Shown in pieces: positions 550-52,253 of a stretch of 52,253 nt of DNA. The notes beneath the pieces are model-generated. The model saw only the letters and a list, made by a program, of their open reading frames with translations. It had not been told where the DNA came from and ran no database searches. The DNA lies in NCBI GenBank assembly GCA_004143605.1, contig AWVY01000043.1, forward strand, positions 1 through 52,253, in the 5' to 3' direction. Positions within the stretch are counted from its first letter, which is position 1; each line of letters begins with the position of its first letter. The position numbers were made by a program, and so were the translations under genes. The stretch is from Desulforamulus aquiferis (GTDB taxonomy: Bacteria; Bacillota; Desulfotomaculia; Desulfotomaculales; Desulfotomaculaceae).

Positions 550-2436
550 ATGGCTAAAATTGTAGGAATTGATTTAGGGACCACAAATTCAGTGGTGGCT
601 GTAATGGAAGGGGGGCGTCCAAGTGTAATTGTAAATGCTGAAGGTGCTCGCACCACTCCTTCTGTAACAGCGTTTCGTGAAGGCGGTGAAAGACTCGTGG
701 GCAGATGGCTAAACGGCAAGGCGCCATGAATCCAGAGAAAACACTATATTCAGTGAAGCGATTTATTGGCAGAAGGTACTCTGAAGTGGCGGATGAGAGG
801 CAACTGGTGCCCTATAAAATTGTGGCAGGGCCAAATGATGCAGTTCGGTTTGATATTGCCGGCAAGTTATATGCCCCAGAAGAAATATCAGCATGGTAAT
901 TAAGAAAATGGTGGATGATGTTGCAAAATATCTTGGTGAAAAAATAACTGACGCTGTCATTACAGTTCCGGCCTACTTTAATGATGCACAAAGACAGGCA
1001 ACTAAGGATGCAGGTAAGATCGCCGGCCTAAACGTACTCAGGATTATCAATGAACCCACCGCGGCAGCACTGGCCTATGGTATGGAAAAGAAGGCCAATG
1101 AAACTATTTTGGTTTTCGACCTTGGCGGAGGAACCTTTGACGTATCTATATTAGAGGTTGGCGAAGGTGTATTTGAAGTGAAGGCAACTAATGGCGACAC
1201 ACATTTGGGTGGAGACAACTTTGACAAGGCCATTGTTGATTGGCTGGCTGATGAATTTATCAAGGATTATGGGGTTGATTTAAGGAAGGATAAGCAATCT
1301 TTACAAAGGCTTACAGAAGCTGCAGAGAAGGCAAAGACGGAACTTTCCAGCATTATGGAAACTCAAATTAGCCTACCCTTTATAACAGCAGATGCCGCTG
1401 GTCCTAAGCACCTGGATATGAAACTCAGCAGGGCCAAGTTTGAGGATTTAACCCACCCTTTAGTTGAACGGTGCCGGGGTCCTGTGAAGTCTGCACTGGC
1501 TGATGCTAAATTGACTGAAAAGGATATAGATGAAGTTATCCTGGTGGGTGGTTCAACCGTATTCCTGCAGTTCAAAGGCTTGTGAGTCAGATGACTGGTG
1601 GCAGACAGCCAAATCATGGGGTAAATCCAGATGAAGTAGTGGCAGTGGGTGCGGCAATTCAAGCCGGAATTCTGGCAGGCGAGGTTAAGGATGTTGTGTT
1701 GTTGGATGTAACCCCACTATCCCTTGGCCTTGAGACATTAGGTGGGGTAATGTCGAGAATTATTGAGAGAAATACCACCATACCTGTACGCCGGAGTCAG
1801 GTGTTTAGTACCGCCGAGGACAATCAACCTGCTGTTGATATTCATGTATTACAGGGCGAAAGGGAAATGGCCAGAGATAACAGATCCTTGGGGCAGTTTA
1901 AGCTGGCTGGCATACCAATGGCTCCAAGGGGAATTCCGCAAATTGAAGTAACCTTTGATATTGATGCCAATGGCATTCTCAAAGTTAGTGCTAAGGATAA
2001 AGCTTCAAGCAAAGAGCAGATGGTTACCATATCAGGTTCCAGCAGCTTAGATAGGGCAGAGGTGGAAAAAATGATAAGTGAGGCGTCAGCAAATGCCGAA
2101 GAAGATAAAAAACGACGGCAGGAGGCTGAAATTAAGAATGAAGCAGACAGTTTAATTTATCAAGTGGAAAGACAGATAAAAGAGGTGGGAGATAAACTGC
2201 CGATTCATGAAAAAGCTCGTATTGAACAACTTACAGGAGAATTGAAGTTAGCTATCAACGAAAATAGAGATGTTGAAGGAATTAGAAGTCTTGCCAGTGA
2301 TTTAAAACAAGCAGCACTTTCAGTGGCTCAGTATACCACAGTGGAAAATGGGTGTGGTTCAGGGAGCTGTGATACCGGTAATAAAGACAGACATAAAGAT
2401 GATGATGTAATAGATGCAGAATTTGAAGAAAAATAA
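550..2436 (+). CDS. dnaK: Chaperone DnaK (Hsp70), three apparent frameshifts
   Basis: ATP-dependent Hsp70 chaperone of the cytoplasm. The start at 550 is chosen because AGGAGG (535-540) is 9 bases upstream; the ATG at 541 is too close. Visible motifs are IDLGTTNS at the N-terminus, [28 protein letters not shown], and [12 protein letters not shown] opening the substrate-binding domain. One base appears to be missing near 700 (ggg for gggg), near 893 (gca-tgg for gcaatgg) and near 1558 (cc for ccc). Restored, the protein has about 629 residues, normal for DnaK. The tail is unusual: it carries CGSGSC before an acidic [12 protein letters not shown] end. No grpE or hrcA is adjacent, so this may be a second DnaK of the genome. 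It heads an operon with a J-protein and clpB behind a CtsR-like operator. Confidence 0.93.
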
Positions 2437-2482
2437 GAGCTGGCATAATTCATGGCCGGGTGATTAAGGTGGTGAAGAATAA

Positions 2483-3344
2483 ATGACATCTGCTTACCGA
2501 GACTACTATCGGGTTTTAGGTTTAGAAAGGACTGCCGGTGAAGGGGAAATCAAAGCAGCCTATCGTAGGTTGGCCCGGAAGCATCACCCGGACCTGCACA
2601 CTGGCAGCCAAAAGGAAGCCGAAGAGGAAAAATTTAAGGAAATCAATGAAGCCTATGAAGTATTGAGTGACCCGGAAAAAAGGGCTAAATATGATAAGTT
2701 GGGAATAAAGGGCAGAATGGGCAGGGTTGGCAAGCACCCGATATGGGAGATATTAGGTATTATAGTGATATCTTTGCAGCGTTTTTGGTGGAAGTACTGG
2801 AGGTCAAAGGGTCAACCTACCTGGCCAGGATATTGAAGGTTTATTACAGTTGACTGTGGAGGAGGCCTATCGGGGAGGAAATAAAACTATTCAGCTTTTA
2901 AACAAGGTTCTTGAAGTTAAGGTACCATCGGGTGTGCAGGACGGAAGCAAAATAAGGCTAAAGGGGCAGGGTGAGGAAGGAAATTATGGTGGTGAACCGG
3001 GAGATTTATATCTAAAAATAAGCATCTTATCCCACCCACATTTTACGATAAAGGGCAAAGATATAGAAAGCAGGGTAAGTATCAGGCCAGAGCAGGCGGT
3101 TCTGGGTGAGATGCTGGAATTGGAAACCTTAGATGGTAAGATAAAAGTTCGGATTCCTCCTATGAGTAAAAATGGGAAGAAGCTAAGGTTGAGAAACAAG
3201 GGATGGCCTGGAAAGAAAGGTGAGCGTGGAGACCATTATATTGAGGTGGTTATTGATATTCCAGATAGCTTAACTGATAACGAAAGAGAATTATATGAGA
3301 AATTAGCTAATCTGAGAAGCTTCGACTCCCGCCAGGCAAGTTAA
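2483..3344 (+). CDS. J-domain cochaperone without zinc finger (CbpA/DnaJ-like), two apparent frameshifts
   Basis: Hsp40 cochaperone that should stimulate the ATPase of the DnaK encoded just upstream. Residues 4-70 form a J-domain ([11 protein letters not shown] at 35-37, then [20 protein letters not shown]). A Gly/Gln/Trp-rich linker follows, then the C-terminal substrate-binding domain ([36 protein letters not shown]). The four CxxCxGxG zinc-finger repeats of classical DnaJ are absent, so it is closer to CbpA-type proteins. One base seems missing near 2700 and one near 2783 (a T-run in the linker). Repaired length is about 287 residues. The gap to dnaK is 46 bases, consistent with one operon. 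Confidence 0.85.
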
Positions 3345-3471
3345 GTAAATATTATTAGAATAAAACATAGATTGCATTACTAGGGAGTTAGTTTGTATAA
3401 AAATAAGTCAAAAAATTATTAGCACAGTAAAAGGAGGTGAATCCCCGGCTTAATTGCTAAGGGGTACAGGT

Positions 3472-51101: not shown

Positions 51102-51212
51102 ATGAACAAATCACTCCATCCACAGCGCAATTTCCAGTATAAATTATAAAATTGGATATTAGCACGATATTTCCTGCTAACTGAAAAAGCTAAATCTATT
51201 TTTATGAGAAGC

Positions 51213-51241
51213 TTCTAGTTGCTCAGAGAGACTGTTATAAT
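51213..51241 (+). promoter_or_regulatory. Candidate extended -10 promoter of tsaD
   Basis: TGT-TATAAT (51233-51241) forms an extended -10; the -35 TTCTAG (51213-51218, 17-base spacer) is weak. It lies 59 bases before tsaD. Confidence 0.5.
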
Positions 51242-51300
51242 AGCACTATATGGGATTGGGTATAACTGTAATAATTTAAGCATTATAAAAGGGTGGACTT

Positions 51301-52253
51301 ATGAGCGTAATTATATTAGGAATAGAAACCTCCTGTGACGAAACCTCTTCCTCGGTGTTGGTGGATGGAGCAGAGCTCCGCTCAAATATCATCTCCTCTC
51401 AAATAGAAGTGCATCAAAAATTCGGCGGGGTGGTACCTGAGGTTGCTTCCAGGAAACATTTAGAAAACATTAATTCTGTAATTATTGAGTCCCTTGAGAA
51501 GGCCGAGGTTAGCCTAAAGGATATCACAGCAGTTGCTGTTACCTATGGACCGGGTCTTGTAGGTGCATTACTGGTTGGTGTAGCTGCTGCCAAGGCATTA
51601 TCCTATGCCTTGGATATTCCGTTGATCGGTGTGAATCATTTGGAGGGACATATTAGTGCAAATTTTTTAGCTCAGCCTGGGCTGGAATTTCCACTAATTT
51701 GCCTGGTGGTATCAGGAGGACATTCGGATATTGTTTATTTGCCCAATAGGGAGAATATCAACTCCTGGGGCGAACCAGGGACGATGCTGCAGGTGAGGCC
51801 TTTGACAAGGTGGCTAGGGCAATGGGCCTTGGCTACCCTGGGGGCCCTTGATAGATAATCTGGCCAGGCAGGGTAATTCACAGGCTGTAAAATTCCCCAG
51901 GGCATTTCTGGAGGAGGGCAGCTTAGATTTCAGTTTCAGCGGACTGAAGTCAGCAGTTCTTAATTATTTAAATCGGTCTAAAATGCTTAATGAAGAAATA
52001 AACAGGGCAGATCTGGCTGCCAGCTTCCAACGGGCAGTTGTTGAGGTCCTTGTGGATAAAACAATTTCTGCTGCCCGCCGAACCGGGGTCAAAACAATTA
52101 TCACGGCAGGGGGGGTGGCGGCAAATGGTGAGCTAAGAAATTTGCTGCTGGAAAAGGCCGGTGAGGCCGGATGTAAAGTTTTCTTTCCACCATTGAACTT
52201 ATGCACCGATAATGCTGCCATGATTGCCTGTGCGGGCTATTATAAGTACTTAC
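51301..52253 (+). CDS. tsaD: tRNA N6-adenosine threonylcarbamoyltransferase TsaD, partial, two missing bases
   Basis: The 3' end lies outside the window. Catalytic subunit of t6A37 synthesis, iron-containing ASKHA fold: [64 protein letters not shown] with the HxEGH metal motif, [13 protein letters not shown]. After repair [32 protein letters not shown] and [19 protein letters not shown] follow. Bases are missing near 51770 and near 51853. GGTGG precedes ATG 51301. Separated from tsaE-tsaB-rimI by the MocR gene on the other strand. Confidence 0.95.

Follow-up and report, generated by a model that had tools for sequence, protein, structure and literature searches.

One-signed frameshifts in a Desulforamulus aquiferis draft genome and their likely source in sequencing and assembly

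The first 52 kb of a contig of Desulforamulus aquiferis (AWVY01000043.1 of assembly GCA_004143605.1; here C43, 111.7 kb), a stretch of 52,253 nucleotides that we refer to as the window, contain gene after gene with an interrupted reading frame, which raises the question of whether these interruptions exist in the organism or only in its assembled sequence. The gene order of the window is one that we take to be Clostridia-like. The draft genome comprises 3.57 Mb in 69 contigs, with 3.9% contamination and a completeness of 72% versus 94 to 100% in eight genomes of the same genus. A preliminary description made from the letters alone reported about 70 single-base losses in about 29 genes, without a single insertion, and ascribed them to homopolymer under-calling in the assembly rather than to gene decay. 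Comparison with same-genus relatives indicates that the frameshifts are almost certainly artefacts of sequencing or assembly, that is, consensus errors not present in the DNA of the organism, because the losses are one-sided on six contigs and include rpoB and groEL, the relatives are intact and there are no nonsense changes.

Frameshifts in the window and beyond it

Frames were compared with a protein-to-DNA dynamic programme allowing frame changes in either direction at equal cost, using as references the open reading frames (ORFs) predicted from a 60-kb stretch in each of five genomes of the same genus (G001, G003, G005, G007 and G008), with more added for the right half of the window. To be counted, a frame change had to appear in two or more relatives that made up at least 60% of those aligned to the gene. 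The tested part of the window comprises 48 genes and 40.0 kb, the other ~12 kb having no usable relative, and a pseudo-gene over the transfer RNA (tRNA) cluster (26842-27053) with one +2 call was removed before counting. On this basis 29 of the 48 genes are affected, with 65 losses of a single base (-1), two of two bases (-2) and one gain (+1), in good agreement with the numbers first reported. The left part (1 to 26.8 kb) contributes 46 -1, one -2 and no +1 calls in 24 genes, 17 of them affected, over 24.5 kb, a density of 1.9 per kb. Calls below the agreement threshold (six -1, two -2 and one +2) were not counted. One of the 65 losses, at 12365 just before the start of disA, is doubtful, being seen only with relatives whose ORF extends upstream. 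The sole apparent gain, at 44582, is backed by four of four relatives; two close losses would produce the same frame, and simulated deletions gave 8 +1 calls per 1006 -1 calls. Save for this one call, losses without insertions are what the independent alignment finds. The sites originally highlighted at 700, 1558, 12950, 20036 and 26250 were recovered at 698, 1557, 12952, 20038 and 26248, each of gltX, cysS, glnS, ispD, sigH and tsaD does carry losses, and the 18 bases said to be missing from clpB and clpC together were all found (Table 1).

When each of the five relatives was used as the target of the same procedure (34.7 to 50.7 kb of genes each), no supported -1 call was obtained, indicating that the pipeline is not biased to supported losses. 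Supported gains from these targets came to 8 +1 and one +2 calls, distributed over 8 genes, and several lie close to an ORF start or inside the tRNA cluster; another 43 -1 and 23 +1 calls lacked support. Internal stops were counted without the pipeline filter that discards alignments containing them. Among 523 alignments covering the window, the rest of C43, C41, C34 and C12, internal in-frame stops occur in only three rows, each an antisense match across the tRNA cluster, consistent with the earlier statement that there are no stops beyond the shifts. Stops falling within 60 residues of the start or 10 of the end (31 more) were not scored as nonsense, the ORFs of the relatives often beginning upstream of the true start. 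Reference-free decoding of frames from codon usage (42 -1 and 12 +1) agrees in direction; this approach confuses gene junctions with shifts and was not used for counts.

Pooled stretches of contigs C12, C25, C34, C41, C43 and C48 have 101 of 165 genes affected over 139 kb, at ~1.4 -1 calls per kb, and the losses are one-sided on each of the six contigs in which genes could be tested (C48 provides two; C30 and C50 have none with a reference). In total this sample holds 198 -1 and eight -2 versus three +1 and one +2 calls. For calibration, 1840 random bases, coding or noncoding, were removed from copies of the relatives' stretches, and these pure deletions returned 1006 -1, 31 -2, eight +1 and one +2 supported calls. 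As simulated pure deletions yield a similar mix, such a process explains most or all of the eight -2, three +1 and one +2 among the 210 calls of the genome. The many insertions and nonsense changes that the preliminary description had associated with real pseudogenes were thus looked for, and the gains amount to the four calls just given. In this genome rpoB is found in nine matches on C34 and groEL in six on C43 and C41, while in the eight relatives rpoB occupies one open frame each and both groEL-type matches are full length. Gaps in 16S are too few to use (one in its own gene and two in that of a relative over 1253 columns; zero and two over 299 columns with another relative).

Base context of the losses and the likely platform

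For 97 of the 198 losses, two or more relatives agreed on the exact site. Grouped by a run that originally measured 1, 2, 3, 4 and at least 5 bases, these number 16, 22, 25, 4 and 1 for G/C and 20, 6, 2, 1 and 0 for A/T, such that G/C accounts for 68 of the 97, and G/C in runs of two to three for 47 of 97 versus 131 of 631 simulated losses (p 4e-8). Rates per run, calculated from 86 placed of 181 losses before C25 was added, are 0.57, 1.49, 8.02 and 4.07 per 1000 G/C runs of length 1 to 4 and flat for A/T (0.58, 0.58, 0.66 and 1.02). Runs of at least five bases have a loss in one of 221 cases for G/C and none of 471 for A/T, and the window retains runs of 7-8. Losses leaving a G/C run of two are in excess (17 of 65 versus 33 of 631 simulated, p 4e-7); those leaving at least three are not (3 of 65 versus 21 of 631, p 0.48). 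Within seven bases of the 46 left-part sites, the longest run has a mean length of 2.9, versus 3.2 at random coding positions. An early count of gaps, made with a single relative in each case (111 of 126 losses), lacked a null and was superseded by the simulated comparison.

Short G/C steps, and not long runs, are therefore the vulnerable places, and homopolymer length as the driver was rejected, there being no rise for A/T and long runs being spared. The preliminary description correctly spotted an artefact and correctly set it apart from gene decay, but put the mechanism too simply. Its placement of the losses in runs of 2-5 holds in that many lie in short runs and fails for the single bases; under-calling driven by length does not stand, whereas the hint of short runs does, through the excess in G/C runs of two to three. 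In the count by run length that it had suggested, losses rise for G/C only, up to length 3.

Neighbouring bases have a mild influence. With complementary bases folded, C losses are preceded by G in 34 of 61 cases (38% expected) and T losses by C in 17 of 25 (32% expected), and AGGC/GCCT lies within nine bases of the loss at 53 of 181 sites versus 25.6 expected, the top of 138 four-letter words. No clean motif emerged from k-mer tests at the 181 sites (an earlier 47-site test was too weak). Read on the contig plus strand, losses in the consensus show no imbalance between the strands (G 31, C 30, T 16, A 9).

The ends of the contigs bear on read length. Of 50 contig ends searched against about an eighth of the genome, 27 lie in a 65-227 bp match to other sequence of the same genome, versus 6 of 400 segments taken from contig interiors; two other contig starts, read as N, were excluded, and some of the matches are reciprocal pairs. 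Parts of the ribosomal RNA (rRNA) operon are scattered over C14 (23S, 5S), C48 (16S, 5S), C41 (at its end) and the window (at its start). Since contig ends sit in repeats of this size, the reads were probably short. According to Bragg et al. (2013; PMC3623719), the commonest high-frequency indels of Ion Torrent data are insertions of A/T and deletions of C/G, and the strand-asymmetric ones are chiefly C and G deletions, 82% lying in runs of two to three. The resemblance of the present genome to the Ion Torrent Personal Genome Machine as portrayed there lies in recurrent single-base C/G deletions in runs of two to three and in reads too short to carry an assembly through short repeats. Losses in G/C runs of two to three together with repeat-ended contigs fit this platform better than nanopore sequencing, as judged from PMC3623719 versus PMC8486125 and PMC9262707, and, given an artefact, flow sequencing of an Ion Torrent-like kind is a reasonably likely source. 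The draft assembly, probably metagenome-derived, would most likely have been built from short flow-sequencing reads in which deletions of one base recur, chiefly at G and C in runs of one to three; deletions outvoting the correct base would have persisted in the consensus, and the same short reads would make contigs stop at, or jump across, repeats of ~75-230 bases.

Several observations weigh against this account. The Ion Torrent data described in PMC3623719 contain many A/T insertions and long-run errors, with insertions outnumbering deletions overall and accuracy dropping with run length. Neither pattern is present here: the A/T insertions expected of a flow-sequencing artefact are not seen, gains make up 4 of 210 calls as from pure deletions, and long runs are not enriched. 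Moreover, 36 of the 97 placed losses lie outside any run, and the platform is an inference from the assembled sequence. As to the artefact itself, a profile search marks one stop within a groEL piece (C41) and one within an rpoB piece (C34); both are presumably profile matches crossing a shift, the alignments of C41 and C34 being without an internal stop.

A long-read artefact, namely deletions left behind in a nanopore (or PacBio) consensus that had low coverage or no polishing, is probably what the preliminary description meant, and would share the genome-wide broken gene calls, dominant deletions and lowered completeness that PMC9262707, PMC8486125 and PMC7966762 report for unpolished nanopore consensus. 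Deletions dominate nanopore errors and G/C homopolymers are called worse than A/T ones according to PMC8486125, which also places deletions outside runs before k-mers starting CGG, CAG or CAA. CAG does follow 8 losses in our data versus 2.9 expected, a point that likewise tells against flow sequencing, whereas CGG (0 versus 1.7 expected) and CAA (2 versus 3.4 expected) are not enriched. Furthermore, nanopore accuracy is described in the same paper as dropping above run length 5, whereas here there is no rise beyond 3 and A/T runs are spared, and long reads would cross the ~100 bp repeats at which these contigs end, such that we regard this alternative as unlikely. It is very improbable that a base modification or damage in the DNA of this organism makes the polymerase or base caller skip G/C steps (e.g. 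in GCC or GCT contexts), which would turn the error map into a faint epigenetic map; the preference of C losses for a preceding G and of T losses for a preceding C would agree with it, though they form no clean motif. Real gene decay has a practically negligible probability: intact genes in the relatives do place the loss or misreading in this lineage, but losses of one sign without nonsense changes are not what decay leaves, and a cell with broken rpoB, groEL, sigH and tRNA synthetases could not live. Programmed frameshifting or another recoding that reads through the genes might account for nearly one-signed losses with a sequence bias around AGGC/GCCT, but is hardly conceivable given the mildness of that bias, the lack of a shared slip motif in the k-mer tests, relatives that need no shift at the loci tested, and the occurrence of double losses.

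The frameshifts, which we ascribe to the sequence data, are a data-quality problem, not biology, and they make the gene calls, completeness (72%), pseudogene counts and metabolic inference for this genome unreliable. The signature of one-sign losses, G/C runs of two to three and repeat-ended contigs may aid the recognition of similar drafts.

A probable chimeric join and other repeat-associated features

The window also departs from its relatives in gene order, a feature absent from the preliminary description. Positions 1-26.7 kb are collinear with ~2.48-2.51 Mb of G003, and 28.7-44.9 kb with 2.740-2.756 Mb of the same genome. At the first of these places each of the five scanned relatives carries the tRNAs Thr(tgt)-Tyr-Met-Thr(ggt)-Met; at the second, both scanned relatives (G003 and G001) carry Val-Thr(ggt)-Thr(cgt). 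In the window the order is Thr(tgt)-Tyr-Met-Thr(ggt)-Thr(cgt), which switches from one arrangement to the other at the shared 76-bp tRNA-Thr(ggt). The Met-Thr(ggt) stretch of the window recurs at the start of C25, with 8 mismatches and 2 gaps between the copies over 171 columns, and C25 then continues as does the first place in the relatives; its first tRNA, called Val(cac) by the tRNA finder, aligns at 88-92% to the Met of the window and relatives and not to their Val. Judging from these sequence comparisons, the window is probably chimeric, misjoined through the 76-bp tRNA-Thr(ggt) repeat, a true rearrangement at 27.2 kb being possible but less likely, and gene order across this point is not to be trusted.

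C25 itself (L169 567-2229) jumps from a gene at 29.3 kb of the G005 stretch to genes at 46.8 kb onward, and the rpoB contig C34 matches C25 at both ends. This is a probable second jump at a repeated gene, going by the order of the matches, and the gene is presumably tuf. On C48 (L101 10732-12530) 16S is followed after 80 bases by 5S, with 23S skipped, three single Ns inside 16S and a cluster of Ns after 5S; this rRNA region is a collapsed or mixed operon. Copies of the TwoAYGGAY RNA (RF01731) on C12 (L108 5434-5591, L111 10254-10411 and L112 18748-18904) form a repeat family of ~265 bp, within which C20, C45 and C50 end.

Gene content of the window

Table 1. Features of the window, with coordinates, strand and supported frame changes; losses are of single bases unless stated otherwise.
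Feature	Position	Strand	Observation
dnaK	532..2433	+	3 losses
unnamed gene	2489..3317	+	2 losses
clpB	3472..6047	+	8 single, 1 double loss
probably ctsR	6260..6782	+	2 losses; family search without match; name presumed from operon order
mcsB protein arginine kinase	7256..8384	+	4 losses
clpC	8411..10829	+	8 losses; family matches are ClpB/ClpA-type models; name presumed from operon order
radA	10980..12355	+	1 loss
disA	12268..13441	+	1 loss, 1 doubtful call upstream of start
gene with weak ATPase-model match	14761..15899	+	1 loss
ispD	15895..16580	+	4 losses
glnS	17181..18848	+	3 losses
gltX	19458..20962	+	1 loss
probably cysE	21006..21691	+	1 loss; name presumed from gene order
cysS	21652..23149	+	1 loss
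probably mrnC	23134..23553	+	3 losses; name presumed from gene order
thyX and rlmB	23590..25134	+	intact
unnamed gene	25141..25649	+	1 loss
sigH	26009..26674	+	1 loss; 97-98% identity to relatives
tRNA-Thr(ggt)	27208..27283	+	probable chimeric-join point of two separate chromosomal blocks
unnamed gene	28592..31017	+	1 loss
unnamed gene	36159..36729	-	2 losses
glucose-6-phosphate isomerase	37531..38956	+	3 single, 1 double loss
two unnamed genes	40247..41079	+	3 losses between them
acetolactate synthase small subunit	41224..41745	+	2 losses called
class I glutamine amidotransferase-like gene and amidohydrolase-like gene	42580..44446	+	1 loss each
unnamed gene	44525..44987	+	the window's only apparent gain (or two losses)
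two unnamed genes	48402..49554	+	2 losses each
tsaD	51295..52252	+	2 losses; runs to window end

The two calls in the acetolactate synthase small subunit are less certain than the others, as ORF 41233-41748 matches the entire family model. Between 33728 and 35546 the window encodes an XdhC-family protein and YqeB, genes of selenium-dependent molybdenum cofactor maturation, which suggests a molybdenum hydroxylase system.

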